DNA from: Maricaulis salignorans
GTDB lineage: Bacteria; Pseudomonadota; Alphaproteobacteria; Caulobacterales; Maricaulaceae
Direction: 5' to 3'
Length of the DNA: 64,000 bases
Assembly (NCBI RefSeq): GCF_900103475.1
Contig: NZ_FNHG01000014.1
Span: 1 to 64,000, forward strand
The translations under genes and the position numbers were made by a program. A model generated the notes under the pieces. It worked only from the letters and a program-made list of their open reading frames with translations, had not been told where the DNA came from and made no database searches. Numbering within the stretch: the stretch's first letter is position 1; every line of letters starts with the position of its first letter. Shown in pieces: positions 48,087-64,000 of this stretch.

Positions 48087-49919
48087 ATGTCCAGAACCGG
48101 TGAGTCAGAGGATGCCGTGACGCCGCCGGTTCCCGGATTCGCCGAGGCCGCCGGCCATGCCTGGCGCACGCTGGGCCTGACCTGGTCGGCCAGCCGTGGC
48201 CTGACCATCCTCATCGCCGCCCTGACGGTCTTCGTTGCCCTGCTGCCGGCGCTGGCGCTCTACCTGTCCAAACTGGTGATGGATGGCGTCGTCACGGCGA
48301 TGGACAGTGCCAGCCCGGCCGATCGGGATCTGGCCCAGCTCTGGGTCGCAGCCGAAGCGGCGACGCTGGCCGTCCTGCTCGCGGCGCGACGCCTCCTGAC
48401 CTTTTACAAGACCCGCCTGCACGCCGAGCTCGGCTTCGCCGTCACCTCGCTCATTCTGCGGAAGTCGGCAGCCCTGTCGCTGGCCCAGGTCGAGGATGCG
48501 GCGGTGCAGCAGCAATTCCTGCTGGCGCGGCAATATGCGGCGAGCCGGCCCTATAATCTGGTCAATCGCCTGTTCGACGCGGCCCAGCAAGGTCTGACCC
48601 TGGCCTCGGTCGCCGCCTTGCTGGCCGGTTTTTCACCCTGGCTCTTCCTGCTTGTGGTCGCCGGCGGCCTGCCGCTCTTTATCGGCAATCTCCACTTCGC
48701 CGGCACCGCCTACCGCTTCTACACCGGCCGTTCGCCGCAAATGCGCGAGCGCAGCTATCTGGAAAGCCTGGTCACGACCGAGGCCGCCGCGCGCGAGCGC
48801 CTGCATTTCGGTTTCGGCGATGAATTGCTGCGCCGCTATGGCGAGCTCTTCCACTCCCTGCATGCCGATGACAGCGCCCTGCATGCGCGCCAGGCCTGGA
48901 TCGCCTCGGCGCTGGGCGTTCTCAGCTCGGCGGTGTTTCTTGGCGGCAAGGTCTGGATTGTCTGGGTGACGATTGGTGGCGCTATCTCGCTGGGCCAGAT
49001 GGTGATGCTGGTCGGCCTGCTCAAACAGGGACAGGCGAATGTCTCCTCGCTGATGGCGGCCTTCAATGGCGTCGTCGAGGATCTGCTCTATGTCGCCAAT
49101 CTGTTCGCGGTGATGGAATTGCCCGAGGAGGATCGTAGCAGCGGCGCCACCGCCGGGCCGGATCCGGAGGACGGGCTGCGCTTCGACAAGGTCAGCTACA
49201 GCTATCCCGGTCGCAAACGCCCGGCGCTGGACGCGGTCAGTTTTCATCTGCCCCATGGCAGCCGGCTGGGTATTGTCGGCGCCAATGGTTCGGGCAAGAC
49301 GACGCTGGTCAAGCTCGCCACCGGCCTCTATGCGCCCGATAGCGGCCGCGTCACGCTTGACGGTCTGGATTTGCGGGACTGGCAACGCGCCGCGCTGTCG
49401 CGGCGTCTGGGCGTGATGTTCCAGCCCTATATGAATTACAAGCTGACCGCGCGCGACAATATCGCCGCCGGGCGCGGCCTCGCCGAGACCGATGCGGCAA
49501 GCCTCGCCCGCGCCGCCCGGCTGGGTCTTGCCGAGGAGCTGATCGCCGAATTACCGTCCGGTCTCGACACGCGGCTGTCGCGCCATTTCCTGGACGGACA
49601 TGATTTGTCCGGCGGCCAGTGGCAGCGCCTCGCCATGGCGCGTGCCTATCTCAATGATGAGGCCGATATCCTGATCCTGGACGAGCCGACCGCCGCCATG
49701 GACCCCGCCGCCGAAGCCGAATTCATGCAGCGTCCGCTCGATGGCAAATCGGTGATTCTTATCTCACACCGCCTGTCCAATCTGCGCCATGCCGACCAGA
49801 TCATCGTCCTCGACAAGGGCAAGCGGATCGAGATGGGCTCGCACGACACACTGATCGCGCAAGGCGGGCTCTATGCGGACCTGTTCGAGAGCCAGGCGGA
49901 TCCTTACCGCGAAGGGTGA
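48087..49919 (+). CDS. ABC exporter with fused permease and ATPase
   Basis: 610 residues. Six membrane helices (about 35-340), then an ATP-binding domain with Walker A GANGSGKTT, signature LSGGQ, Walker B ILILDEP and an H-loop SHRLSN. The MsbA/lipid-A-type exporter architecture moves amphiphilic or lipid-linked molecules. In an operon with two sulfate/glycosyl-transfer genes, so a sulfated glycolipid or glycan precursor is the likely cargo. Last gene before the chromosome/element boundary. Confidence 0.85.
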   Translation: MSRTGESEDAVTPPVPGFAEAAGHAWRTLGLTWSASRGLTILIAALTVFVALLPALALYLSKLVMDGVVTAMDSASPADRDLAQLWVAAEAATLAVLLAARRLLTFYKTRLHAELGFAVTSLILRKSAALSLAQVEDAAVQQQFLLARQYAASRPYNLVNRLFDAAQQGLTLASVAALLAGFSPWLFLLVVAGGLPLFIGNLHFAGTAYRFYTGRSPQMRERSYLESLVTTEAAARERLHFGFGDELLRRYGELFHSLHADDSALHARQAWIASALGVLSSAVFLGGKVWIVWVTIGGAISLGQMVMLVGLLKQGQANVSSLMAAFNGVVEDLLYVANLFAVMELPEEDRSSGATAGPDPEDGLRFDKVSYSYPGRKRPALDAVSFHLPHGSRLGIVGANGSGKTTLVKLATGLYAPDSGRVTLDGLDLRDWQRAALSRRLGVMFQPYMNYKLTARDNIAAGRGLAETDAASLARAARLGLAEELIAELPSGLDTRLSRHFLDGHDLSGGQWQRLAMARAYLNDEADILILDEPTAAMDPAAEAEFMQRPLDGKSVILISHRLSNLRHADQIIVLDKGKRIEMGSHDTLIAQGGLYADLFESQADPYREG

Positions 49920-50505
49920 GGGGGGTGCCGGCGGCTATTGGCAACAACACATCGCCGCGCGTCCGCAAAAATCGAATGGTGCCGGCTGAGGGCTCCGCAC
50001 AACTGGTCCAGCGGTATCTCATATCGGCTCATGAACGCCCACCAGCAAAGGGATTGCGGATGAGACAACGTCTCAGCCGGTCTCACAATATGGCATGTGA
50101 TCCCACGATTTTGTTGGTCGCGTTGTTGGTCTCGTTTTTTGGTGCGAGGATGCCTCGTCCCCTCGGGAACCGCCAAGAAGGTTGCAAGTGAGGGATGCGA
50201 ATTGACCTCAACGCACAGCTCGAGAGGTGAGATCAACGCCAAAAATGCCATCCAACTGCAATTAGTTTGCTTGAATCACAAGTTGAAAACGCATTTGGAA
50301 AAATATTTTACTTAATAAGTAGAATAAAATTGGCGTCATCTATATATCTCCGACCAACAAAAATGATAATTGGCACACATTTAAAATGTCAAAATACTTA
50401 TTATAAGCAAAATTTTATTCAAATGATTATTAATGGCGTGTACAGGCCGACCTATGCTTGACTCACAAATTTGTCGTTACTATCTCCACGGTATAGGAGA
50501 TTGTC
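49920..50505. other. Intergenic stretch holding the left border of the inserted element
   Basis: No convincing gene. GC content is host-like to about 50,190 and drops sharply after about 50,250. The AT-rich part contains three perfect short palindromes (50310-50320, 50377-50389 and 50397-50407). No tRNA or tmRNA end, the common target of P4-type integrases, is visible, so the attachment site is not identified. Confidence 0.55.
50465..50474. promoter_or_regulatory. Palindrome and promoter-like sequence before the integrase
   Basis: ACAAATTTGT, a perfect 10-bp palindrome, lies 31 bp before the integrase ATG. TTGACT just upstream could be a -35. A Shine-Dalgarno AGGAG stands six bases before the ATG. 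Confidence 0.35.
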
Positions 50506-51786
50506 ATGAAGTTAACGACGACGAAATTGAATGCTTTGCGTGCCCCCGAGAACGGATCATCACTCAAGCGGTCAGACGGGCGTGGCCTATTTATATGGGT
50601 GCACCCGACAAATACCAAGACGTGGAAGTATTCATGCCGTTCTGGTGGCAAGCAGAAGACCTTTACTCTTGGCAACTACCCAGAGATTGGGTTGGCGGAT
50701 GCCCGTGAAATGGTCACCAAGTTGCGGTCAGCTCAACAGACCGGCCAAGATACGAACGAAGCCCTTCGGGTGATTAAGAACGGCGGTTTGGAAGCGGCGC
50801 CCTCGCTGAGGTCCTTTGTCGATGAGGTCATTGAGCATGCGCAGCGGGAAGGAATGGCTCCCGCAACCGAGTCCAAAAAGTGGTGGCTAAGGGACGCGAT
50901 CCCGACCGTTTTGCTCGACAAAGCGATTAATCGCGTCACACGCGCTGAGTTGGCTGAATTTGTTGGGAGGCTCGTAAGCTTAGGTCACCTCGACAAGGCC
51001 CGCAGGGTTGCAAGACTCTTGGTGAAAGCGTGCGACCGTGCGGTCATTAAGGGGTGGTTGAGCGACAATATTGCGGAACGCCTCTCCTGTCTCGTTCCCG
51101 CAAGAGCCGCCCGCCATCACCCGGCTATCGTTGATCCGTATGAGGTGGCGGGTGTTTTGGGCAAAGTCTACTATTACGGCGGATCGAGTGCTGCCCGCAT
51201 GTGCCTACGGCTGGAGCCTTACCTGCTCTTGCGGCCCGGTGAAGTCAGAGCTGGCCGATGGTCTGAGATTGACTGGAAGAACTCTGAGTGGGTCATCCCG
51301 GCGGAGAGGATGAAGATGTCTCGTGACCACATCGTTCCGCTCAGTCCATTTGTAGTTGACCTCCTCCGTCGCCATCGTTCCCAAAATCCCGAGGGAGAGC
51401 TGATCTTTCCATCGAGACGTTCCGCGGACGTCTATCTCTCTGAGAACACTATGAATCAGGCGCTCTGGCGGTTGGGATATAAGGGACGTATGACGGCACA
51501 CGGATTTCGGTCAATGGCGTCCACCCTTTTGAACGAAATGGGCTGGAATTCAGACTGGATCGAAGCGCAGCTCTCCCACTCCCAACGAAATGCCGTCAGA
51601 GGCGCGTACAATCGGGCTGAATATTTGGAGGGTCGGCGCACGATGATGCGGTGCTGGTCTGAATATCTGCTCGAGCTAGAATCTTACGCCCTCGGGAATA
51701 GCCCCACTCTGCCAATCCTGTTGAGGTACGGGCCATTGGGGCAGTCTGATCAGCTTCCACCTTACACGGAGGCACCAGAACAATGA
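50506..51786 (+). CDS. P4-type tyrosine integrase
   Basis: 426 residues. N-terminal DUF4102 arm-binding domain (about 1-85, with GLFIWVHPTNTKTWKYS and TFTLGNYPEIGLADAR), SAM-like core-binding domain (100-200) and catalytic domain. Active-site residues: R243 (LLRPGE), K270, H332-R335 (HGFR), H358 and nucleophile Y368 (GAYNRAEYLEGRR). P4-type integrases place satellites and islands near tRNA genes. First gene of int-alpA-HUH; its TGA overlaps the next ATG. It should carry out integration and, with an excisionase, excision. Confidence 0.93.
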   Translation: MKLTTTKLNALRAPENGSSLKRSDGRGLFIWVHPTNTKTWKYSCRSGGKQKTFTLGNYPEIGLADAREMVTKLRSAQQTGQDTNEALRVIKNGGLEAAPSLRSFVDEVIEHAQREGMAPATESKKWWLRDAIPTVLLDKAINRVTRAELAEFVGRLVSLGHLDKARRVARLLVKACDRAVIKGWLSDNIAERLSCLVPARAARHHPAIVDPYEVAGVLGKVYYYGGSSAARMCLRLEPYLLLRPGEVRAGRWSEIDWKNSEWVIPAERMKMSRDHIVPLSPFVVDLLRRHRSQNPEGELIFPSRRSADVYLSENTMNQALWRLGYKGRMTAHGFRSMASTLLNEMGWNSDWIEAQLSHSQRNAVRGAYNRAEYLEGRRTMMRCWSEYLLELESYALGNSPTLPILLRYGPLGQSDQLPPYTEAPEQ

Positions 51787-52004
51787 GCGCCTTATCAGAG
51801 ATACAAGTTTGTCCCCTGCGGACAGGTGATGAATTGGTCAGTGCCCGCCAAGTCGCCAGCCTGTTGAAAATTAGTAGGGCGACGTTCTACCGCTGGAGGC
51901 GTCGTCCTGATTTTCCAATTCCCTTGCGCATTTCGCCGTTCACAGTTCGGTACTGGCGTTCAGAGGTTATTGTTTTCGTTGAGTCAAAGCGAGGGCTGCA
52001 ATAA
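51783..52004 (+). CDS. AlpA-like excisionase/regulator
   Basis: 73 residues, MerR-like winged helix with RQVASLLKISRATFYRWRRR and FPIPLRISPFTVRYWRSEV, the AlpA pattern. In P4-like elements such proteins regulate integrase expression or act as directionality factors. The ATG overlaps the integrase stop (ATGA) and the stop overlaps the next start (TAATG). Confidence 0.85.
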   Translation: MSALSEIQVCPLRTGDELVSARQVASLLKISRATFYRWRRRPDFPIPLRISPFTVRYWRSEVIVFVESKRGLQ

Positions 52005-52588
52005 TGGCTGGTTGCAAGCAATACGTTTCACAAAAGGCGCAGGATGACTTCGATACCCGGTCAACATGGTCGCTTTATCGAACATATGCCGTAGAGCGCC
52101 TTGCTGAAAATATTGCCAATGATCGGGCGTATCTGGTGACGATCACATTTGATCCGGGGCTTCGACAAAAAAGTCCGGTCATCGAGGATGTCCTGCATCC
52201 GTTGATCGAAGGGTGTCTTAGTCACTGCTGGAATGCTGTCAACGAGGTGAATTTTGGCAAGCGAGCATTCCATAAGGCTGGCGATTACAAGGATCAGTTT
52301 GGACGTGGCGTTTTTACCGTCGAGCGCCACTCAAAGGATGGATCGACGTATGTTGGTCCGCACATTCACGGCACAATATTCGTCTCCAACGCTCGACACG
52401 GAGTGATCAAAAATCCGCGCAAACGGATGAAAGAAAAACTTGAACGGATCGGTCGAAAAATCTGGCCGGCCTTTGATGTCCACATCGCCGAACTTTTCGG
52501 CGCGAATGATCGACTTGAGGGCCTTAAATACGCGCTTAAAGAACACGGCTGCGAAACGCGGTCACTGTTTCGGGAGGGGCGTTTCTAA
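52004..52588 (+). CDS. HUH-type single-strand endonuclease (replication initiator)
   Basis: 194 residues. Three motifs of rolling-circle initiators in order: motif 1 YLVTITFD (43-50), motif 2 HIH (H120, H122) within GPHIHGTIF, and motif 3 YALKE with Y176 and K179. The Tyr is the likely nucleophile and the HxH pair binds a divalent metal. The protein is small and has no helicase domain, so replication, if it happens, would rely on host functions. Tight coupling to alpA and int suggests element replication or mobilisation. Lower GC than the host. The match is by motif only. Confidence 0.7.
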   Translation: MAGCKQYVSQKAQDDFDTRSTWSLYRTYAVERLAENIANDRAYLVTITFDPGLRQKSPVIEDVLHPLIEGCLSHCWNAVNEVNFGKRAFHKAGDYKDQFGRGVFTVERHSKDGSTYVGPHIHGTIFVSNARHGVIKNPRKRMKEKLERIGRKIWPAFDVHIAELFGANDRLEGLKYALKEHGCETRSLFREGRF

Positions 52589-53154: not shown

Positions 53155-54051
53155 CTACCGGGCGTGGAATGACATCAAATCGTTGATCTTGGCGTAGAGT
53201 TCACCGGGTAGCTCGACCTGCTCATTTCCGAGGCGGTTTAATCTTCTGTCCAACTCTGATGGCCAGTCATTCACATAAACACTCTCATCCTGAATGCCGG
53301 CATCACCAAATACTTGGATGATTGTACTGCGGTCTGAGGGCGAGACTGGCATATTGTCGGGGGCGCTCATTTGGCTAATTACGCTTCGACCACCGACCCT
53401 TGGCGTGACCGATACCACAATCTGCTTTTCTCCATTGAACACATAGAAGCTTTGCTCACCGCTCAAGGCCTCGCCAATAAAATTCCGGAGACAAAGGTGA
53501 AGTTTGAGCCCGCATGAACGAAGCGAGTCCACGGTGCGGATCGGTGTGACACGGGGGTCAATAATTTTCGGCGCTTCTGGAAACGGAATGCAGCGGTCGA
53601 GGAAATGCGATGACGCCTTGTCCCAAAAGTCGGATCGGGATTGTGAAGTTTGTAATTTCGAAATCAGGGAACGGGATCGATCGATGCAGCCCATCGATAT
53701 CCGGGAAATAATGGTGGCCTCATCTTCATTGCGGATGAATCGGATGACTCTCGGAATTCGAAATGGGCCGGGAAGTCGGTGCAAAAGGCGAACAAGGTTT
53801 GGAGAGACTGCTGGCGTGTGGCGCAAAATTCCGATCGCATTTTCGCTTTCGAGCAAATCGGAAAGCAGCCGGTAGTCAGCTTTTTCCCAAAGCGGCAGTG
53901 TCAGGGCTTTCAAGATACTCACGGTATCCGGGCTGAGCCGTGGGTCGGCCAAGCAACCGGCTTCCCTCCAGTCGCGAATGTGGTTGAAGGCGAGTTGGGC
54001 GTTGCCATTGCTGGCTATCGGGTTGGATATCATCATTGCGGCCGCGTGCAT
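53155..54051 (-). CDS. Unknown protein of the integrated element
   Basis: 298 residues starting at the ATG at 54051; a shorter start at 54036 is possible. Mostly helical in the first half (ILKALTLPLWEKADYRLLSD and so on). The second half has a mixed part with CGLKLHLCLRNFIGEALSGE and FYVFNGEKQIVVSVTPR, faintly like the Cys-containing loop of PcfJ-type plasmid proteins, but not enough to assign. No signal peptide or membrane segment. Opposite in strand to the integrase operon. Function unknown. Confidence 0.55.
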   Translation of the reverse strand: MHAAAMMISNPIASNGNAQLAFNHIRDWREAGCLADPRLSPDTVSILKALTLPLWEKADYRLLSDLLESENAIGILRHTPAVSPNLVRLLHRLPGPFRIPRVIRFIRNEDEATIISRISMGCIDRSRSLISKLQTSQSRSDFWDKASSHFLDRCIPFPEAPKIIDPRVTPIRTVDSLRSCGLKLHLCLRNFIGEALSGEQSFYVFNGEKQIVVSVTPRVGGRSVISQMSAPDNMPVSPSDRSTIIQVFGDAGIQDESVYVNDWPSELDRRLNRLGNEQVELPGELYAKINDLMSFHAR

Positions 54052-54264
54052 CTACATGGATGATCTCTCGAGGAAATCGAGGTGCGGGAAGGGCCATAAG
54101 CGGGCAATATCTAGCGCCATCGTACCCGCAACATGCGATAGTGCATGCGATGTCCGGGGCATTTTCTGATCTTGATTTACGAGATTGGTTTTTCTCATGG
54201 GGCCTCACCGCAGACTGCCGCAATACATGCGCGATGAGTAAAAATCAAGTGGAAAATCAGTATG

Positions 54265-56949
54265 TTATGACGGTTTCGCTTTCAGGCCAGCCAATGTTGA
54301 GCTCTCAGTGACCTGATCGTGTGCGATCAAAAGGTATTGCCAGCGTTTTCCATCGGCATCGCTGGCGTGTTCATTCGCGTATTCGACCCATTTGGAGGCA
54401 GCACGTGCCTTGGCCTGAACCAGTTCATCGTCAAGTTCGTTGCGGGCCTTGATCTCCACGATCAGCTTTTCGGTTTTGGTCTCGACTACGAAGTCAGGTT
54501 CATACCCGCGACCGGATTGATACTCGATCTGGAACTGCCTTGCGGCCGGCTTCAGCCATTTGATCACGGACGGTTCGCGGTCTGAATCAATCAGTACGGC
54601 AAATCGACGTTCGTCGTCGGAATCAAATTTTTGAATTGAGGAACCGCATTTGCTGAATCCCGAGAAGAGAAATTTCTTGGTATCTGACTTCGGTGTCACT
54701 GTTTCGCGGAAATCCCTCAACTTGTTCTGGGCAGTCGCATTGTAGGATTGGGGTTCAAGCGATCGAAAACCCATGGTCACACGGGCGCGATAATCGGTCG
54801 GGGTTTCCCAGTAATTCTCTTTCATTTGTTGGAAGATGAAGTCGGCAATGTTCTTTCCATGACCGAGGGCGACATTTTCCACCTCGTCATCTGACTTGAG
54901 ATAGGTCCTGAGGTGAGCCGTCATCTGACCGGCCAGCTTGTAGAGAAGATCAGCTTGGGTGTCGTAATCGACTTCATCATTTTCGATCAGGTGCCTGACG
55001 ATATAATTCTCGAGCCGCTCTTCTGTTGGACCGTCAACGCTACGTGCGAGAACCCTTTGGGATTCAGTCCGTATATTCCGCACAAGAATTTCATTGGAAA
55101 TAGGCTGCCAGTGTTTTGACTCCACACCGGCGAGATCAAAGTCATTAAAACCGAACGACACTTCACGCGTTGGAATGACGATGATTTGCGGGATTTCGAT
55201 CGTGTGGGCGAGAACGGCGTCCAGAACTGCTGCCGTGATTTTGGCCGCATCCGGTTGGTCATCCATCTGATCCACCAGATCACGTGAGCTTGTGATCTCC
55301 TTCTGAACCTCACTGCGTATCTGGGCGATGCTCTCAGGCGACGTCAGGCTACCAAGAGACGGCGATTTGCCGGCATGCCGCTGGATGGCCCGTTTTGCTG
55401 CGTAAGCGGCCTGTCGGTCTGCCTCGGTGACGAATAGCGGTGGTGAAATTTGCGTTTTCGCATCGTCCACGCCTTCAATGTCGGGTTTGAGACCAAACAA
55501 AATGCTGTCGAGCCGGCTTGGAGCTTCAACAACACGAGCCCGTTGGGCCGGAATGTCTCCGCCGGGGCCGATTGTGATCCGCTTCATCTTGACGATGGAC
55601 TGGTCTTCGCGGGCTTTCTTGACCACTTCGTCAAACCGGTCATGGGCGATCACGGTGAGGGTGTCTACGGCTTCCTCGCCGGTGCGTTCTCCGTAGGGAA
55701 GTCGCAGGCCGCGTCCCAATGTCTGTTCCGTCAGAATATCCGAAGCTGAGGCCCGCAAAGGAACAATTGTGTAGAGGTTGGTGACATCCCACCCTTCTTT
55801 GAGCTTGTTCACATGGATGACGATCTCGGTGAGATTGTCGGTCTCAAGGCCGACCAATCGCTCGACGGCCTCGTCGCTCTCTTCGCCTGAAAGATTAGAG
55901 TGAACGACAGCGACACGCTTTTTGTAGCGTCCCGAGAAGAAGTCATCGCTATCAATCATTGCGCTCAGTTCGTCGGCATGTGTGGTGTCCTGAGCGACAA
56001 CCAGAATGAAGGGGTGAACCAGCGGCCGGCCTGATTGGCGGTGATAAACATCCAGTTCCGCTTTCAGGTTCTCGTGATAATGCACGGCGTCTTCGAGCAT
56101 GATCGTCTCGACCTGCTCGGGAGTGAAGTCCGCCTTGTTGAAGTTTGCCCGCGTCGCGACCGCCGGCTCCTTCACATAGCCATCCGCCATGGCATTGCCG
56201 AGGCCATAGTTCAGAATGACATTCTTGAACGGCTTGGACTGGGCGCCAACGGTTTTGGGCGTCGCCGTCATCTCTAGTCCGAGGATCGGCTTCAGCTCGG
56301 CAACGGCTCTCATGCCGGCTTTGGCACGATAACGATGGGCTTCATCCATCATCAGGACGAGGTCGGGCAATCCGGCCAGATAATCAAAATAGGATTGCCC
56401 GATATATTCGTGCAATTTTTTGATCTTGCCCTTGTCCTTGTTGATCTTGTCGACGTTGAAAATGTTGATCACGACATCGCCGCCGAACATGTCGCGTATC
56501 TTCACGCCCCGGCCTTCCTGCCATGTATCGCCGGTCACAATGATCGGAGGCTGTTGGGCGAATTGGGAAATACCCTTGAAGACATATTTGGGTGATGACG
56601 GGTTGGAAAAGTCATCGATCAATTTTTGGTAGATCGTCGTGTTCGGGGCCAGAATGAAGAAATTCTTCGACCGTCCACTCAGGAACAGGAAGGCGCACAT
56701 CGCGCCCATGAGCCGGGTCTTGCCGACGCCGGTTGCAAGGGCGAAGCAGAGCGAAGGGAAATCTCGCTCGAAGTCTTCTACGGAGGGGTATTGTGACTTG
56801 ATGTCTGCCAATGCCTCTTCGAGATCAACGGCCTTCGACAAATCGATCCGGGTGAAGACATCGCGCAGGATATCCAGTGAACGCTCCTGCGGTTTGCGTA
56901 GCGAGAGGCGCTGGCTGATCTGCTGGACGAGCTTTTCATCGCTGATCAT
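54265..56949 (-). CDS. Type III-like restriction enzyme, Res (helicase-nuclease)
   Basis: 894 residues. SF2 helicase core: motif I ATGVGKT (72-78), DEAH box (202-205), and a late motif QTLGRGLRLP. The C-terminal nuclease is PD-(D/E)xK with D819 (YEPDFVV), E832 and K834 (VEIKAR), so it looks complete. Type III Res translocates or signals along DNA after Mod recognises an unmodified site and then cuts. Its ATG overlaps the Mod stop (ATGA). It is the last gene of the four-gene defence operon. Confidence 0.9.
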   Translation of the reverse strand: MISDEKLVQQISQRLSLRKPQERSLDILRDVFTRIDLSKAVDLEEALADIKSQYPSVEDFERDFPSLCFALATGVGKTRLMGAMCAFLFLSGRSKNFFILAPNTTIYQKLIDDFSNPSSPKYVFKGISQFAQQPPIIVTGDTWQEGRGVKIRDMFGGDVVINIFNVDKINKDKGKIKKLHEYIGQSYFDYLAGLPDLVLMMDEAHRYRAKAGMRAVAELKPILGLEMTATPKTVGAQSKPFKNVILNYGLGNAMADGYVKEPAVATRANFNKADFTPEQVETIMLEDAVHYHENLKAELDVYHRQSGRPLVHPFILVVAQDTTHADELSAMIDSDDFFSGRYKKRVAVVHSNLSGEESDEAVERLVGLETDNLTEIVIHVNKLKEGWDVTNLYTIVPLRASASDILTEQTLGRGLRLPYGERTGEEAVDTLTVIAHDRFDEVVKKAREDQSIVKMKRITIGPGGDIPAQRARVVEAPSRLDSILFGLKPDIEGVDDAKTQISPPLFVTEADRQAAYAAKRAIQRHAGKSPSLGSLTSPESIAQIRSEVQKEITSSRDLVDQMDDQPDAAKITAAVLDAVLAHTIEIPQIIVIPTREVSFGFNDFDLAGVESKHWQPISNEILVRNIRTESQRVLARSVDGPTEERLENYIVRHLIENDEVDYDTQADLLYKLAGQMTAHLRTYLKSDDEVENVALGHGKNIADFIFQQMKENYWETPTDYRARVTMGFRSLEPQSYNATAQNKLRDFRETVTPKSDTKKFLFSGFSKCGSSIQKFDSDDERRFAVLIDSDREPSVIKWLKPAARQFQIEYQSGRGYEPDFVVETKTEKLIVEIKARNELDDELVQAKARAASKWVEYANEHASDADGKRWQYLLIAHDQVTESSTLAGLKAKPS

Positions 56950-58589
56950 GACTTGTCTCCGCTCCGCTCGGTGAACAAGGGAAGCCCCTCGTCAGGGTCA
57001 TCCGGTTCCGCCATCGGGAGGTTCGCGACATTCAGGCTGTAATCGTCACGGCCCCATTCGCATTTACGCAGGATCGTCTGAGGTATTTTCACGATCGTCA
57101 GATTGTCGAAGGCGTCCGCATCGGCCTTGAAGGCCTTGCAGCAGACCAATAGCGATCGATCCGGGCCGACATCTTCAGAAAGCTTGGTCAGCGCCGCATG
57201 GGTGAGGGATTGGGTTGTGACGTAGATAAAGTCCGTCTCGGTTGAACGGCCGTGCATCCAATAGTCTTCGGCATCGTCACTGGGCGCATAGGTGAATCCC
57301 AAATGCTTGCACATAGCTTCAGCCAGCATCTCGGGGCGATATTCCTTTGAAATGACCCAATTGCCGTACTTGTCCTGCTCAAGCAGGGACGGGGCCAGAT
57401 TGAAATAGCGAAAGCCGCCGCCGCCTTTCCAGTCCATAGACATTGAGATGCCGCCGGTGTCTTCGCCATCGATCACCCGCTGCAGCCGCGGCCGGCAATG
57501 CGTGTCGCAATGGTCGCCCAGCTCGACCATGATCCATTTGCGACCCATCTTGTGGGCGACCGCGCCGGTAGTTCCCGACCCGGCGAAGGAATCGAGGACT
57601 AGGTCCCCGGGTTCGGTGGCGAGCTGGAGAATGCGCTGAATTAGCGCCTCAGGTTTGGGGGTCGGAAAGGGGTCTCGTGGGAACAACGCGACGGACTCTT
57701 TTTTGGCGTCTTGTGTGTGCCCGACTTCTTCGTAACCCCAGCAGGTTTGGGGGACACGCCCGTCTTTAACTTCGGATAGGAAACGCTTCAAGCGAGGCGT
57801 TCCTGAACCATTTTTTGTCCAATATATCCTGCCATCTTTATCAAGTTCCGCTAATTTCTCGGCAGAAACGGCCCAATAACGGCCAGCCGGAGGCCCCTCG
57901 ATTATTTCTCCGTTTGGCGTCGTAATACTATAGATTCCCTTGCTGTATGCATTTCTTGCAGAAATATTGTCTGATGTCCAAGGGCCACGTGGGTCGTTGT
58001 CAGTATTTTTGTATATAGAATTTTGTTTTTGCGTTCTTGGGAGCCAGTTTATGTCAAAATGATGCTTCTGCTTTGCGTACACAATTATATAGTCATGATC
58101 GACAGATATATAGTTCGCGCTAGATTTCGGGGCATAATTTTTTCGCCAAATAATTGTGGCGATAAAGTTCATTCTCCCAAAAATTTCATCCATCAAAATT
58201 TTTAAATATGCGAACTCATTGTCATCAATAGATATCCAAATGCTTCCATCGTCTGAAATTAAATGTCTGAGAATTATAAGCCTCTCTTTTATTAAGGAAA
58301 GCCAAATGCTATGCTCTAGCCCATCGTCATAATGTGAAAATGCGCTACCTGTATTGTATGGCGGGTCAATATATACGCACTTTATTTTTCCAGAATAATC
58401 TTGCTCCAAGGCCTTTAGTGCCAATAGATTGTCGCCATGAATAAGCATGTTCTCGAAGGAGTCGTCTTGCGACCGTTTTTGCTCGGCGTGATACGACTTT
58501 TCTGGGTCTTCAATCAGAATTCGGGGCTCCAACCTCGGCCGGTCATTCTTTCCAATCCAAGTGAGTTCGAGCTTGGTTTTCTTGGCCAT
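56946..58589 (-). CDS. Type III-like DNA methyltransferase, Mod
   Basis: 547 residues, beta-class adenine methyltransferase: catalytic DPPY at 75-78 before the SAM-binding FAGSGTT at 335-341. The region between them (about 150-320) is the target recognition domain and sets sequence specificity. The C-terminal 150 residues are less conserved. It protects host sites and recruits Res. Starts 2 bp after the stop of the upstream unknown gene and overlaps Res, so all are translated from one message. The GC content of the TRD part is clearly lower. Confidence 0.9.
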   Translation of the reverse strand: MAKKTKLELTWIGKNDRPRLEPRILIEDPEKSYHAEQKRSQDDSFENMLIHGDNLLALKALEQDYSGKIKCVYIDPPYNTGSAFSHYDDGLEHSIWLSLIKERLIILRHLISDDGSIWISIDDNEFAYLKILMDEIFGRMNFIATIIWRKNYAPKSSANYISVDHDYIIVYAKQKHHFDINWLPRTQKQNSIYKNTDNDPRGPWTSDNISARNAYSKGIYSITTPNGEIIEGPPAGRYWAVSAEKLAELDKDGRIYWTKNGSGTPRLKRFLSEVKDGRVPQTCWGYEEVGHTQDAKKESVALFPRDPFPTPKPEALIQRILQLATEPGDLVLDSFAGSGTTGAVAHKMGRKWIMVELGDHCDTHCRPRLQRVIDGEDTGGISMSMDWKGGGGFRYFNLAPSLLEQDKYGNWVISKEYRPEMLAEAMCKHLGFTYAPSDDAEDYWMHGRSTETDFIYVTTQSLTHAALTKLSEDVGPDRSLLVCCKAFKADADAFDNLTIVKIPQTILRKCEWGRDDYSLNVANLPMAEPDDPDEGLPLFTERSGDKS

Positions 58590-58591
58590 GA

Positions 58592-59848
58592 TCAGTCGTC
58601 ATCCGTATCCGCGTCGGCATCGCGTGCCGCTCGCTGGTCAAAATAAAATTGCAATTCACGTTCAGCGTCGCGTTGCAGTATTTCCTGAAATGCCGCTTCA
58701 TCAATAGGCGGCTTCGGATTGTCGTGGAAATCCATAACTCTGCCCGTCGAGCCGGTCAGTGCGTCCAGCACCTGTTGTTGGTCACATTCTGCGATTTCCG
58801 GGCGCAGATCGATTGCATCAGGCGCTATTGAACGGCTGAAAGAAAGGCCTTCCCCGGTGATGTCGAGCGACGCATCAGCAGTGTCGTGTTCATCAACGAC
58901 TTCGGAACTGGTGGAATCCACGTCTGCAGGAGCCTTCCACCGCCAGCGTTTCGTGGTGGCGAGTTTGTGATTTGCCGACTTCCTGTCTTTCACCCTCTGA
59001 GCCGCGGCCTTCAGGTCCCGATCATAAAATGTGTTGGACGTCCGGTCCTTGTTGGGCACGAAACAGCTGGTTTGCTGTAGCTCGGCGATGAGGGTCTGAC
59101 GTTCGTCGTTCCAAGGAATGACGTGGGTCCTTCCTTCGCGCAACCATGGTACGATCGTGCGGTGTGGCTCGGCCTGCCACTTCACACGAAAGTAAACTGT
59201 ATAGAGCTCATCAATCTCGCCCTTGGCGCCAGTTGATTCAAGCACTCCGTCCTCAATCGCATCAACAGCGTGGCGGGCCGCCCGCATCTTTCTCCGGAAT
59301 ATGTCGGGTAACTGGCGCGCCATTTCTTGAAGGCGTTCTGCCTTACGCTGCAAGATGGGGCGGTCATTCTGTCGGGCAGAGTAGCGCATATCCCGGCGGA
59401 TCATTTGGAGGGCACGGTCGATCTCATTCGACAGACGATTCAGGTCCCGTTCGTGTTGCTCAACGACCTTGTCGGCGTCCAGATGGGCGTGATCCAGAAT
59501 GCGCTGGCACCGCCGATCACACAAACCCAAGAAGTCCCAGTAGAGGCCGTCGACGAGTTCATCCAGCTCCTCCGGTGGGGTATGCTCCACTTCCGTCGGA
59601 AGCGACATGGGCATTTGAAGCAGGCATGAGGCGGGATAGCTCGAGAGCGAATAACCGGCATCTGTCAGGCAGGCGAAGCGGGTCTCCTCCCAGCTGCCGA
59701 TCGGAGTTTCAAGGCTGACCCGGAACGCCTTCAACCACCCCGATTGGCGCTTGAAGAGCTGGAGGAAGCGCCCCGGTCCCTCATACCCGTCGAGAAACAG
59801 ATCAATAGCGAACGGGTACCCGCAGAGATGTTCGCCGAATAGCCTCAT
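58592..59848 (-). CDS. Coiled-coil protein coupled to the type III and SNF2 genes
   Basis: 418 residues, no recognised family. A helical or coiled-coil stretch rich in Arg/Glu occupies about 120-200 (VVEQHERDLNRLSNEIDR, LQEMARQLPDIFRRKM). The C-terminus is acidic and ends in DADADTDDD. No catalytic motif or signal peptide is seen. It lies 9 bp after the SNF2 gene and 2 bp before Mod, so it is translated between helicase and methyltransferase. A bridging or regulatory subunit is plausible but unproven. Confidence 0.7.
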   Translation of the reverse strand: MRLFGEHLCGYPFAIDLFLDGYEGPGRFLQLFKRQSGWLKAFRVSLETPIGSWEETRFACLTDAGYSLSSYPASCLLQMPMSLPTEVEHTPPEELDELVDGLYWDFLGLCDRRCQRILDHAHLDADKVVEQHERDLNRLSNEIDRALQMIRRDMRYSARQNDRPILQRKAERLQEMARQLPDIFRRKMRAARHAVDAIEDGVLESTGAKGEIDELYTVYFRVKWQAEPHRTIVPWLREGRTHVIPWNDERQTLIAELQQTSCFVPNKDRTSNTFYDRDLKAAAQRVKDRKSANHKLATTKRWRWKAPADVDSTSSEVVDEHDTADASLDITGEGLSFSRSIAPDAIDLRPEIAECDQQQVLDALTGSTGRVMDFHDNPKPPIDEAAFQEILQRDAERELQFYFDQRAARDADADTDDD

Positions 59849-59857
59849 GGATTGGGC

Positions 59858-62743
59858 CTATTCCACTGACCAACGGATTACGAACAGGTCTTGAACGCTT
59901 GGCTTGCGGTTTAGGCTTTCAGCAATGTCGTCCAGCATTTCTTCAACTTGACGCCGGATTTTCACTCGTTGCTCGTGTTTGCTGAGCACGAGGTCATCAC
60001 GATCGGCTTCGCGGCGTTTGACCTTTTTGCCCAAGGCCAGCTTTTCCTCCATTGAGAGGCCGGCGGCGCGGCGTTGCTTTCGGAGTTCCTTTATTTCCTC
60101 CTCGACTTCCTTGATCCGCGCATTGAACTCGGTCTCGAGGTCCTTCGCATACTCATCCAGCCGGAATTCCTCGTCTTCCAGCCACTTAGCATTTTCCATA
60201 TTCACCTGCTTGGAAAAGCTATCAAATAGGGCGTCCTTCATTGATTGCAGGCGCCGGATTGGCTTCAGACCTTCGGCCGGGCGTGCTCCGGATGCCGGTA
60301 CCCAGAACATACGGTCAGCTGTCTCCTGTGGGACTTCCTCGCCGTCATCAGTGAGGCAGGCCAAGAGCATTTCTTCCCGCACCGCGTTGGGTGTGTCGAT
60401 TTTGGCTTTCGCCGCGATCAGCCACCCGGATCGTTCTTTAAGCTTGCGGACATCGACAATCTGGCCGGCAAATGGGTACTGATCGGGCGCAAAAGTGATA
60501 TGAATGACCTCATGGTTCAGGTCATATCCCTTGGCCCGGTCCACCACTTCGGCGGCAAGATTGTCGTCCGCCAATCTGAAGAACTGCCAGTCGTTTTCAT
60601 CGGCGACGGGCCACTCTGTCGTATAAGTTTTTCCCTGAAAATCGAATCGAGGGCTATCGGGGGCGTGGAACTTTGCATCCGGCAACTCGGCTTTTGCGAC
60701 GGTTAGCAGGCGACGGTTGAAGTCAGTCAAGGAGGCGTTGATGTGACCGGCTGTGTTTTTGAGGCGAGCGACAACAGCTTGATCGAGTTCCTCAAGCACC
60801 TTTGCTCGAGCGTCTTCCATTTCCGCGTCGATCTTGTCCTGAATCCTTTCCTTCAGAAGGTCGACTTCGAGTTGTATTTGCCCGTCATCTCTAGCGTTCT
60901 GCACGATCGCCAGCACAGCCTTTTCGAAATCGACACCGTTCTCGATTGTCCCGAGTATCTCATCGCTGGAACCGAACACGCCGTCGAAGAGTTTGAATTT
61001 TTCATCGAGTAATTCGTGGATTCGTTTCTCGGCCGCGTTGCTCAGATTCAGCATGTTGACCACGGTCACATCGATCTTCTGCCCATACCGGTGACAGCGG
61101 CCAATTCGCTGTTCCACTCTTTGCGGATTCCATGGAAGGTCGAAGTTGACCAGCAGGGAGCAGAATTGAAGGTTGATGCCTTCCGCTCCACTTTCGGTTG
61201 ATATGAAAATGGTCTTTTCATCGCTCTTGAAAGCCTCGACGAGGGCTTGCTTGATATCTGCGGCACGGGACCCAGACACTTTGTCCGTGCCTTTGTGCTT
61301 TTCCACCCATGCGGCATAGATCGCCCGGCTTTCCGAATCGCTGTTTGATCCATTCAGCAGGACGATTTGGCCTCTAAATCCGTTATTTTCCAGAAGGTCA
61401 GAAAGGTAGCGCTGGGTTCTGACACTTTCGGTAAAAATCACAGCCTTTCGCTGCCCACCTTTTTGCTCGATTTCATCAAGCGCGGAGGGAAGGCGAGCGG
61501 CCAGCTCATCGCCTTTAGCGTTTTTGCCGATACCCTCGGCCAATTCCAAGAAGCTCTTTAGAAGCTGGATTTCCGCTTGAAGCTTAACTGGGTCGATGAT
61601 TTCGGGGAGATCGGTCTCCTCCTCAAAGAGCGATCTCCCGTCCTCACCGGATGAGAGATCGCTTCCATATTCCTCGGCAATATCATCGAAATCATCCAGA
61701 TCATCGATGATGGAGGTGTTGATGGCTTCCTTATTCTCGAGGCGATGGATGAGGTTTCGGAGGTAGTGGGTGACCGCGAAAGTCGAAGACCCCAGCACCT
61801 TCCTGATTTGAAGAATTACGAGGGGATTGGTTCTGTCGCCATACGAGACTGTGTCGTTGCGTTGAAGGAAGGCGGACACCAATTCGTATAATTGCTGTTC
61901 TTCTTCGTTTGGATTGAAATTGAAGGTCACGGCGGTCCGCGCAGTATAGTTGATGTGCCCCGCTTCTTGAACCTGTCTGCGAAGGCTTCGGTGGCAAACG
62001 GGCTCAAGCCTTGCTTTCAATCGATCCAAATCCTCTTGTCCTGTGCCTGCCCCGGTGTACAGGGAGCGGAAGGCTGCAGGCCCGCCGAAATGCGTCTCGT
62101 CAATGACGGACACTAAGCCATAGAGCTCCATCAAGGAATTCTGCAGAGGCGTTGCAGTAAGCAAGATTTTGAATGGGTTTTTCAGGGCGTCTCGCAACAC
62201 CTTTGCCCGAACCGAACCGTCCTTTCGGTAGACATTGCGGAGCCGATGGGCTTCATCAAAAACTGCCAAATCCCAAGGTGTGGCAGCAATCTCGTCGGCT
62301 TTGCTGGAAGCGAACTCATACGAAACGACGATTATGCCCTTGGTGTCGTAGAAGGGGCGCTTGACGCCCTTCTTGACCAAGTCGCGATAGACTATCGCAT
62401 CGATGATTTTGCTCGGCAGGGAAAACTTGTCGATCAATTCCTGTTGCCACTGCTTCCGCAATGACGCCGGTGCGATCAGGAGAATGCGGCGCTGCTGTTC
62501 AGCCCACCTCTGGGCGATCACCATGCCTGCTTCAATTGTTTTCCCGAGGCCAACTTCATCCGCCAGAATTACCCCCTTCGACAGAGGGGACTTCAGGGCG
62601 AAAAGGGCCGCTTCTACCTGATGCGGGTTCATATCCACGCGAGCCGATGAGAGCGACTTCGCAAATGCCTCCTCATCGAGGCCGGCCAGAGTAATGTGGT
62701 GAGCAAGATAGTGGGCGTGATGCCTCGTGAATTCAGCTGTCAT
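59858..62743 (-). CDS. SNF2-family DNA translocase (RapA/DrmD-like)
   Basis: 961 residues. N-terminal ATPase with motif I GKT (67-69) in ILADEVGLGKTIEAG, motif II DEAH (163-166), LLTATPLQNS, and C-terminal motifs FISTESGAEGINLQFC and RVEQRIGRCHRYGQ. An acidic loop (DDLDDFDDIAEEYG, about 350-370) and a C-terminal coiled coil (about 850-910, EVEEEIKELRKQRR) follow. SNF2 proteins move along double-stranded DNA and displace bound proteins. The stand-alone version in DISARM (DrmD) is similar in size, but the other DISARM genes are absent. First gene of the four-gene operon. Confidence 0.85.
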   Translation of the reverse strand: MTAEFTRHHAHYLAHHITLAGLDEEAFAKSLSSARVDMNPHQVEAALFALKSPLSKGVILADEVGLGKTIEAGMVIAQRWAEQQRRILLIAPASLRKQWQQELIDKFSLPSKIIDAIVYRDLVKKGVKRPFYDTKGIIVVSYEFASSKADEIAATPWDLAVFDEAHRLRNVYRKDGSVRAKVLRDALKNPFKILLTATPLQNSLMELYGLVSVIDETHFGGPAAFRSLYTGAGTGQEDLDRLKARLEPVCHRSLRRQVQEAGHINYTARTAVTFNFNPNEEEQQLYELVSAFLQRNDTVSYGDRTNPLVILQIRKVLGSSTFAVTHYLRNLIHRLENKEAINTSIIDDLDDFDDIAEEYGSDLSSGEDGRSLFEEETDLPEIIDPVKLQAEIQLLKSFLELAEGIGKNAKGDELAARLPSALDEIEQKGGQRKAVIFTESVRTQRYLSDLLENNGFRGQIVLLNGSNSDSESRAIYAAWVEKHKGTDKVSGSRAADIKQALVEAFKSDEKTIFISTESGAEGINLQFCSLLVNFDLPWNPQRVEQRIGRCHRYGQKIDVTVVNMLNLSNAAEKRIHELLDEKFKLFDGVFGSSDEILGTIENGVDFEKAVLAIVQNARDDGQIQLEVDLLKERIQDKIDAEMEDARAKVLEELDQAVVARLKNTAGHINASLTDFNRRLLTVAKAELPDAKFHAPDSPRFDFQGKTYTTEWPVADENDWQFFRLADDNLAAEVVDRAKGYDLNHEVIHITFAPDQYPFAGQIVDVRKLKERSGWLIAAKAKIDTPNAVREEMLLACLTDDGEEVPQETADRMFWVPASGARPAEGLKPIRRLQSMKDALFDSFSKQVNMENAKWLEDEEFRLDEYAKDLETEFNARIKEVEEEIKELRKQRRAAGLSMEEKLALGKKVKRREADRDDLVLSKHEQRVKIRRQVEEMLDDIAESLNRKPSVQDLFVIRWSVE

Positions 62744-62916
62744 AGGGCCCCGGTAGTCGACATGAGTACGGAAATTACGACGACACCGCTCCGGTCATCG
62801 TGAGTCTGACTTGATAGTGTTGAGGGTTTTTCTATTGTGAAACAAGAACAAGTTGCATTTTCTCGAAGATCGTTGAGGTTGTTGGTGAATCGAGGCCCGT
62901 CCAGAGGGGATGAAGG

Positions 62917-64000
62917 ATGAGTACGACAGTTTATCGCAAGGTCGATCCGACACTTGGCGGGCTTATCGCCCAGATTAATCAGGGCGACATCGGTCTGCCG
63001 GACCTTCAGCGCCCCTTCGTCTGGCCCAATGTGAAAGTTCGCAATCTATTCGACTCCATGTATCGAGGCTTTCCGGTCGGATACCTGCTCTTTTGGGAGC
63101 CTGCTGAAGTGTCCGGGGCACGTGGCATCGGCGATCAGACACATCAAAAATCTGCACGCTTGCTGATCGTTGACGGGCAACAACGTTTGACCTCGCTCTA
63201 TGCCGTGATGACCGGCGTGAAGGTCGTCGACAAGAATTTCGTTTCTCGCACTATCGAAATTGCCTTTGATCCGCTTTCCGAGAAGTTTGAGGTGGCTGAT
63301 GCGGCAATTCGTCGGGACATTCGATATATCAGCAATATCAGCCAGATTTGGGCGCCAGATGCCGATATTTTCGCCATCGCGACCGACTACATCGAACGTT
63401 TGAATGCGGCACAGGAATTGTCGCCTGAGGACGAACGGAAAATCCAACGAGCGATCATGCGACTCAATCAACTGATCAGCTATCCGTTCACCGCTCTCGA
63501 GCTTTCGTCCGCTGTCGATGAAGAACAGGTCGCCGAGGTCTTCGTCAGGATCAATTCCGAGGGCAAGAAGCTCAACCAATCAGATTTTATTCTGACGTTG
63601 ATGTCGGTCTCCGCAGATGATGCCCGGGCGGCTTTGGAGGCGTTCTGCAGGGCGGCAAGGCAACCCTCTACGACCGGCCCATCTCCCTACAACCCCTTCA
63701 TTACCCCTGACCCGGACCAGCTCTTGCGTGTTTCCGTCGGCGTTGCGTTCAGGCGGGCCAAGCTCAAATCGGTTTACTCACTGCTACGTGGGAAAGACCT
63801 GCAGACAGATGAGTATGATCCCGAGATTCGGGACCGCCAATTCGCCGTTCTTCGTGCTGCTCAGGACAAGGTTCTGAATTTGCAATACTGGCATGACTTC
63901 CTGAAAACGGTCAGGCAGGCGGGTTACCGCAGCTCGAAGATGATCACTTCGGGAATGAATCTGATATTCGCGTACACGCTCTATCTCCTTGGTCGGACGG
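62917..64000 (+). CDS. DUF262 (GmrSD-like) protein, 5' part
   Basis: Open to the window end: at least 361 codons from the ATG at 62917, with GAGGGG seven bases upstream. N-terminal DUF262 domain with QRPFVW (31-36) and the nucleotide-binding-type motif DGQQRLTS (86-93), then VFVRINSEGKKLNQSDF, the signature seen in the GmrS half of GmrSD modified-cytosine restriction enzymes and other phage-defence proteins. A DUF1524/HNH domain, if present, would lie beyond 64,000. Divergent from the SNF2 gene, with about 170 bp between them. Confidence 0.85.
   Translation, partial: MSTTVYRKVDPTLGGLIAQINQGDIGLPDLQRPFVWPNVKVRNLFDSMYRGFPVGYLLFWEPAEVSGARGIGDQTHQKSARLLIVDGQQRLTSLYAVMTGVKVVDKNFVSRTIEIAFDPLSEKFEVADAAIRRDIRYISNISQIWAPDADIFAIATDYIERLNAAQELSPEDERKIQRAIMRLNQLISYPFTALELSSAVDEEQVAEVFVRINSEGKKLNQSDFILTLMSVSADDARAALEAFCRAARQPSTTGPSPYNPFITPDPDQLLRVSVGVAFRRAKLKSVYSLLRGKDLQTDEYDPEIRDRQFAVLRAAQDKVLNLQYWHDFLKTVRQAGYRSSKMITSGMNLIFAYTLYLLGRT

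Follow-up and report, generated by a model that had tools for sequence, protein, structure and literature searches.

A four-gene operon in Maricaulis salignorans joins a Type III restriction-modification pair, Mod and Res, to an SNF2-family ATPase and a fourth protein of 418 amino acids (aa), encoded between the ATPase and the methyltransferase. It lies within the first 64,000 nucleotides (nt) of contig NZ_FNHG01000014.1, hereafter the window. Our analyses very probably identify it as a Type III operon with a dedicated RapA-type SNF2 motor and a stand-alone copy of that motor's own C-terminal domain. Taken as a whole, that is, this identity together with a mechanism in which the motor works on occupied DNA and the fourth protein serves as its adaptor, the favoured explanation has in our estimate a probability of about 0.5. 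Previously, Murray et al. (2021) reported that Eco86II and over 500 genomes have an extra superfamily 2 (SF2) ATPase gene 5′ of mod, and the part of their paper drawn on here leaves its role open (PMC8259958). The novelty that the original prediction, made from this sequence alone, had suggested for the SNF2, mod and res combination therefore does not hold.

A Type III operon with a RapA-type motor

All four genes are on the minus strand, separated by 9, 2 and -4 nt: the SNF2 gene (961 aa, 59858..62743), the fourth gene (58592..59848), mod (547 aa, 56946..58589) and res (894 aa, 54265..56949), with mod directly upstream of res, co-oriented and overlapping it by 4 nt. The list of open reading frames (ORFs) confirms this layout as the original prediction gave it, and its names for SNF2, Mod and Res agree with profile matches and intact motifs. 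Mod is a beta-class Type III methyltransferase that matches N6_N4_Mtase (2.2e-52) and, in PADLOC, MTase_III PDLC03636 (749 bits); its DPPY motif at residue 75 precedes FAGSGT at 335, which is the beta-class order. Res matches ResIII (2.4e-20) and REase_III PDLC03648 (815 bits), and comprises an SF2 motor, with GVGKT at 74 and DEAH at 202, and a C-terminal PD-(D/E)XK nuclease, with PD-x(n)-ExK at 818.

The SNF2 protein matches SNF2-rel_dom (6.1e-33) and retains GLGKT at 65, DEAH at 163 and RIGRCHR at 546. Its helicase core spans residues ~30-660 and is followed by a C-terminal alpha+beta domain with two long helices (~747-960). Its nearest kin are DrmD, BrxHII and RapA, with DrmD the closest by profile (615 bits in PADLOC and 613 bits in NCBIfam, where NF038318 scores 612.9). 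The structure predicted for it has a mean predicted local distance difference test score (pLDDT) of 77.7, and a Foldseek search with this model placed RapA at ranks 1-4 and 6, aligned over ~1060 columns (best E 3.9e-24), while most other chains in the list align over fewer columns. The predicted structure thus marks the SNF2 ATPase as RapA-type.

The SNF2 motor accompanies Mod and Res

Searching genome contigs with the SNF2 protein gave 61 loci, and 53 were counted after eight weak or fragmentary ones (L058-L065) were excluded. In nine of these the contig ends within 3.3 kb of the gene, leaving 44 with downstream room. Mod and Res follow on the same strand in 38 of the 44, some of which (L034, L035, L045) have one gene in pieces; the remainder are two loci with Mod truncated at the contig end, one with a Mod fragment and three without either gene. 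The hosts of the SNF2 loci include Alpha- and Gammaproteobacteria, Bacteroidota, Planctomycetota, Verrucomicrobiota and Armatimonadota. Recurrence of the gene order across phyla shows that the arrangement is not a matter of chance.

The Mod-Res partners were assigned to three PADLOC lineages, a (PDLC03636/PDLC03648, the window's own), b (PDLC03634/PDLC03647) and c (PDLC03646/PDLC03654), other loci being placed by BLAST against reference members. Among plasmids, SNF2 was covered to at least 80% in 44 of 906 matched records. By comparison of hit lists, 43 of these also match Res of one of the three lineages (partially in H146), and in the 44th (H6, L094) SNF2 is fused to the end of Res. This last record, Thioclava plasmid p5, carries a 1233-aa ORF (L094:8992-12693) with SNF2 (DrmD profile, 30-658) and the nuclease end of Res (857-1203); no methyltransferase is annotated in the stretch, and the ORF is either a deletion product or a natural fusion. 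From the Res side, 110 plasmid records matched and SNF2 is present in all 23 that cover at least 80% of the window Res, a set that is not independent, since 15 are near-identical Salmonella plasmids and seven genera are represented overall. The gene order is not invariant: in Conchiformibius (H44/H136) SNF2 is located after Res by coordinates.

In 385 genomes of the class, SNF2 matched in seven: the window (lineage a), L085 and L088 (lineage c), L086 (lineage b), L087, which has no Type III genes in the stretch examined, and L080 and G187, both at a contig end. Res was found there only in its own genome and as one contig-end fragment, a search in which misses are likely because at most a few candidates were scored per genome. 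In E. coli, the SNF2 gene of L071 was matched by distant blastn in 251 of 5426 genomes, over more than 80% of the query in two; four E. coli loci inspected all contain Mod and Res genes, with Res frameshifted in L100.

These findings support SNF2 as a standing partner of this Type III operon and not a bystander. A shared function with Mod and Res is favoured, since it is otherwise hard to explain why SNF2 and the Type III genes occur together in 38 of 44 loci and in all 23 plasmid Res records, and repeatedly so with different lineages. The original prediction had likewise taken SNF2 as a built-in partner, and had named an SNF2 gene forming its own unit, or mod-res occurring mostly without it and the unknown gene, as evidence to the contrary. 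For SNF2, neither was seen: only three of the 44 loci lack both Mod and Res, and every near-full-length plasmid Res of the window lineage has SNF2.

Exchange of Mod-Res partners

The 38 SNF2-Mod-Res loci divide into 31 of lineage a, five of lineage b and two of lineage c. Lineage c Res is covered to at least 80% in 25 plasmid records, and 17 of them are among the SNF2 matches listed. One of the 17 is Aeromonas pE31A, in which the lineage c pair is accompanied by a second SNF2; in this second operon (L123:4130-15572) an AAA and DUF4276 pair lies between Mod and Res, and the lineage a operon of the same plasmid has a similar pair between SNF2 and Mod. Two of the eight lineage c records outside the SNF2 list were inspected, Halobacterium DL1 and a Priestia plasmid; in the latter (L091:3096-12192) a GajB/UvrD-like helicase occupies the place of SNF2 before Mod-Res. 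In lineage b, SNF2 is exceptional: it is near full length and within 7 kb in four of 60 listed records (coverage reaches at least 80% in 130), pE31A being a fifth by record, with its listed SNF2 far away, and Monoglobus having a partial match. Among the lineage b records inspected, one consists of Mod and Res only and another has HKD+Snf2 and DUF4391.

The SNF2 tree comprises 61 proteins and leaves out fragments, near-duplicates and broken copies (L029, L035, L036, L040, L043, L045, L048, L051, L053, L080, L094, L096, L098 and L100). All our trees were built by a quick method, with long branches flagged in this one and in the domain tree described below. Its 53 labelled rows need six changes of lineage against a minimum of two, and the starred branches alone force four changes for lineage a and four for lineage c. 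These changes, together with SNF2 proteins that are alike in the window and Eco86II while Mod and Res diverge, show that the SNF2 motor has been exchanged between Type III Mod-Res pairs.

The same data bear on another reading, in which the operon is an ordinary Type III system and SNF2 and the fourth gene are separate travelling defense genes with no role in restriction. The rarity of this SNF2 in lineage b and the existence of relatives without a fourth gene are in keeping with it, as is Eco86II, which according to the passages of Murray et al. used here methylates and cuts in vitro without the ATPase, the latter being unneeded for methylation (PMC8259958). Separate travel sits poorly with a pairing kept at the frequencies given above, on contigs and plasmids alike, and with an SNF2 that has repeatedly been paired with different Mod-Res lineages; we consider this reading very unlikely.

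A stand-alone paralogue of the motor's C-terminal domain

The fourth protein gave no match above cut-off in family, PADLOC and NCBIfam profile scans. A search of its own genome returned the protein itself and the C-terminus of the adjoining SNF2 (E 1.4e-11). With a hidden Markov model (HMM) of its N-terminal 225 residues, 54 of 66 full-length SNF2 proteins matched in their C-terminal domain (1.1e-28 for the window), and the other 12 C-termini, searched alone with filters off, gave E values from 2e-11 to 6e-3; among the ORFs of the loci, this HMM found nothing beyond SNF2, SNF2 pieces and fourth proteins. In the predicted fold, pLDDT is mostly above 84 over residues 10-220, and the models of this domain and of SNF2 747-960 have a common order of elements: strand, helix, two strands, helix, a (short) strand, two long helices and strand. 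The domain occupies residues ~10-225 (~59171-59848, minus strand), and the tail after residue ~228 is of unrecognised fold and mostly of low confidence in the model.

In the domain tree, 11 stand-alone copies fall on one side of a branch (99), their nearest SNF2 domains being those of the same clade. The end branch of the window's stand-alone copy measures 1.72 versus 0.58 for its SNF2 counterpart, and long branches meet there, which calls for caution. Two further copies of the same family occur in L120 and L121, that of L121 being short (287 aa). All 13 loci with the fourth gene form one clade (99) of an SNF2 tree built from a chosen subset of 27. Between the window and eight of the 12 other four-gene loci, identity is 22-35% for the fourth-protein domain, 37-50% for the SNF2 C-terminal domain and 54-65% for whole SNF2, Mod and Res. 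By sequence comparison and predicted fold alike, the fourth protein is paralogous to the C-terminal domain of the motor, and it evolves faster than the other parts of the operon.

The original prediction had described the fourth protein as a coiled-coil unknown and a built-in partner. The description can now be refined as above, and the gene is optional, relatives just outside the clade being without it. DUF4391, considered as a candidate identity, is rejected for the fourth protein, which matches no family; DUF4391 is found in an Enterococcus faecium operon (L093) with another helicase. In L120 and L121, a 356-aa gene lies directly upstream of SNF2 with no gap (L120:13791-14861 and L121:281-1351), and the L121 copy contains a Fic/DOC domain.

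Variable tails of the fourth protein

Beyond the shared domain, the tails differ between hosts. Rhizobial fourth proteins (L005, L007) end in a GreA/GreB C-terminal domain (31 bits, cut-off 26.9; E 2.1e-7 in L005), a domain that binds RNA polymerase. Those of sphingomonads (L009, L012) carry a GcrA DNA-binding region (63 and 58 bits; E 4.8e-17 in L009). GcrA itself binds methylated GANTC sites and sigma70, according to the portion of the literature source used here (PMC7987155).

As a query, the window protein found no relative in the genome contigs, viral contigs or plasmids scanned. The L012 protein found its main domain in one of 11 plasmid records, that of L066, the other ten matching the GcrA tail only. 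In the 385 genomes of the class, the fourth protein matched in three, its own and two weakly (E 2e-4 and 3e-4). A profile matched 286 of 299 genomes of the order, with the matches listed almost all in the GcrA-tail columns; these are probably housekeeping GcrA, and clear four-gene loci number three (the window, L120 and L121).

Tails of this kind could also be indicative of a regulator. The fourth protein may control transcription or dosage of the operon, for example by delaying Res until methylation is complete after transfer of the island that carries it, and would then bind SNF2 by descent only. The tail families are linked to transcription, as far as the consulted part of the source goes (PMC7987155), the gene sits within the operon, 9 and 2 nt from its neighbours, and delayed expression of Res would be useful on a mobile island. 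Its conserved part, however, is a motor-tail domain and not a DNA-binding domain, the window tail has no such domain either, and a scan of 54000-63200 found promoter- and terminator-like sites not above chance. We regard regulation of this type as improbable, about as much so as separate travel of the genes.

The slot between snf2 and mod

The position of the fourth gene is a variable slot, which holds the fourth protein in one clade and other genes or nothing elsewhere. We scanned 63 insert and flanking ORFs, a set that includes some from outside the slot, such as the L042 gene for a RhuM protein, which is flanked by Mod and Res. A Schlafen AlbA_2 domain with HATPase was found in 16 of the 63; other slot genes encode Fic, DUF6880, or DUF4276 with an AAA protein, and there is a PLD/NgoFVII-like protein in L067, an Abi family protein in L070, and AIPR and VapC in L095. 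Among E. coli loci, the slot of L099 holds IetA and IetS (L099:11780-15157), L100 has the same annotated pair of AAA protein and S8 peptidase (L100:10367-13744), and L097 has AbiD and an AbiU-like/AIPR protein. The whole L097 operon (L097:8808-19353) runs from a helix-turn-helix (HTH) gene annotated mads1 through SNF2, AbiD, the AbiU-like/AIPR protein and Mod to Res, and the mads1 label suggests that its naming overlaps with that of the MADS system. Examples with no slot gene are L018, L019, L021, L039, L055, L068, L069 and Eco86II. Since the slot hosts known abortive-infection modules, it may help to find new ones.

These contents give rise to the main rival of the favoured explanation, a two-layer defense. 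Here SNF2 would sense failing restriction, in the form of stalled or displaced complexes, and license the slot protein, with cell death where this is an abortive-infection effector; in the window clade the slot protein would be a regulator derived from the motor tail. Known or likely effectors indeed occupy the slot elsewhere, namely IetA/IetS, AbiD with the AbiU-like AIPR protein, Schlafen AlbA_2, Fic, DUF4276 with AAA, VapC with AIPR, and the Abi family protein. Against this, many loci lack a slot gene, the window slot protein matches no toxin, nuclease or enzyme family, and the nesting may be mere shuffling within defense islands. A two-layer scheme therefore appears unlikely to us, if less so than the two readings considered before it.

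A proposed mechanism

In the explanation that we favour, Mod would mark one strand of an asymmetric site and Mod-Res would cut DNA lacking this mark, as Type III systems usually do. SNF2 would not be the cutter; by analogy with Eco86II, it may be dispensable for methylation and for the cutting of naked DNA in vitro. It would act in the cell on occupied DNA, walking on the double strand as RapA does and clearing obstacles, such as RNA polymerase or phage DNA-binding proteins, that block the sliding of Res or hide its sites. The fourth protein would be an adaptor whose domain makes contact through the same surface as the motor's C-terminal domain, and whose tail may tie the machine to a signal: marked DNA through the GcrA-type tail of sphingomonads, or RNA polymerase through the GreA/GreB-type tail of rhizobia. 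We offer this mechanism of motor and adaptor tentatively. Its most specific form, transcription- or mark-coupled restriction in which a detachable copy of the C-terminal domain, with a lineage-specific tail, aims the RapA-type motor, is doubtful; if true, restriction would be directed towards transcribed or already marked DNA, or kept away from it.

Several observations weigh against this explanation. The partially purified active Eco86II enzyme yielded no ATPase peptides, as reported in the part of the paper used here (PMC8259958), which, with the dispensability of the ATPase for methylation, speaks against a stable complex. The best PDB structure match of the fourth protein is RapA, and the match is weak (Foldseek rank 1, E 8.3e-3, probability 0.72); a sequence profile of the C-terminal domains searched against PDB sequences did not find RapA. 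GcrA and GreA/GreB were each matched by only three of the 63 ORFs scanned, and the tails of the window, L066 and L120 proteins match no family. Just outside the fourth-gene clade, L122 has no slot gene and L067 has the PLD-like gene, so the fourth gene is not essential to SNF2-Mod-Res.

Even so, these analyses provide handles on the extra ATPase of Murray et al. It is RapA-like, and its Mod-Res partners come from at least three PADLOC lineages. In one clade a copy of its C-terminal domain has become a separate protein, and the tails of some members belong to known methylated-DNA readers or are related to domains that bind RNA polymerase. Whether the ATPase clears roadblocks, or couples restriction to transcription or to marks, has thereby become testable.

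Genomic setting

The operon is carried by an integrated low-GC island of 26.3 kb, which lies at a tRNA-Thr gene and extends from 49976 to contig position 76313. This follows from a GC dip, a direct repeat at the tRNA-Thr 3′ end and a tyrosine integrase. At around window position 50000, GC content drops from ~0.65 to ~0.53, to rise again at around contig position 76000. The 17-bp direct repeat has its left copy at 49976..49992, one end of the island, and its right copy at contig position 76297, which marks the other end of the island and falls on the 3′ end of the tRNA-Thr gene; the repeat is the sole repeat of at least 13 bases reported between 49601-50520 and the region from 62701 to the contig end. 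The integrase (426 aa, 50506..51786, plus strand) lies just inside the left end.

Divergent to the operon is a gene for a 751-aa protein that covers 62917-64000 of the window and continues to contig position ~65172 (L104:218-2473). It combines GmrSD_N (DUF262) at its start, a ribbon-helix-helix motif in the middle and Schlafen AlbA_2 at its end, and is a defense-type gene. Profile scans gave no family above cut-off for the island ORFs 53155-54051 (minus strand), 52004-52588 (plus strand) and L074:1949-4626; the ORF adjoining the last of these, L074:1250-1948, is DUF6946.

Comparison with known systems

In the open-access literature, we found no paper naming this system, its fourth gene or the slot, subscription papers being outside the search. 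As far as our searches go, the SNF2, Mod and Res core is already in print, and the identity of the fourth gene, the exchange of partners and the slot apparently are not. Eco86II, from E. coli NCTC86, and BspHIV represent a "third group" of Type III systems with an extra SF2 ATPase, and N4-methylcytosine (m4C) is the modification made by the two characterised members, Eco86II included, in the sections of that paper used here (PMC8259958). A Cronobacter study, in the portion we drew on, also lists an SNF2 helicase together with Type III genes of an integrative element (PMC12757443).

Of the two characterised members, Eco86II was the one compared. Like the window operon, it has the SF2 ATPase gene 5′ of mod and res (locus L103, SNF2-Mod-Res with gaps of 20 and 2 nt), and the two SNF2 proteins are homologous over their full length (39% identity, 620 bits). 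Unlike Eco86II, the window has a Mod of another lineage (27% identity over part of the length, 115 bits), a Res near background (27 bits, E 0.007) and a gene between SNF2 and Mod, so that the ATPase gene is not adjacent to mod. With classical Type III systems such as EcoP15I, the operon shares a beta-class Mod and a Res with SF2 motor and PD-(D/E)XK nuclease. It differs from EcoP15I and its kin in having four genes, not two, and EcoP15I Res (4zcf) matches the window Res only over residues 363-422 (E 2.2e-4), being otherwise distant by sequence.

A like gene order outside the SNF2 family studied here is seen in the E. faecium plasmid operon (L093, 1921-11168), which also encodes an SNF2-type helicase, a smaller protein, Mod and Res; an HTH gene precedes it. 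Its helicase, however, belongs to an HKD+Snf2 family with a PLD/HKD part (C3a139, 448 bits), its smaller protein is the unrelated DUF4391, and its Mod-Res is of lineage b.

The original prediction that the layout differs from DISARM and BREX agrees with our results. The SNF2 protein, although nearest to DrmD, BrxHII and RapA, stays below the DISARM cut-offs (NF038318, 612.9 bits against 950; NF038317, 248 against 610). The genome has no DUF1998/MZB (DrmB) match, in a search whose control was positive in eight of 14 genomes and in which YprA/DrmA was not searched genome-wide, and no PglZ match, the BREX control being positive in two of 14 genomes; Dnd genes were not searched. DISARM, with DrmD, and ARMADA, with ArmA, as the latter is described in the part of its report used here (PMC12458937), resemble the operon in joining an SNF2/RapA-type helicase to a methyltransferase and a second SF2 helicase, and differ from it in that the window's second helicase is the Res of a Type III system and brings its own nuclease. 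The SNF2 model aligns with RapA along its length, and the RapA-type C-terminal domain, for which published structural searches gave no homologue beyond RapA, would here also exist as a separate protein.

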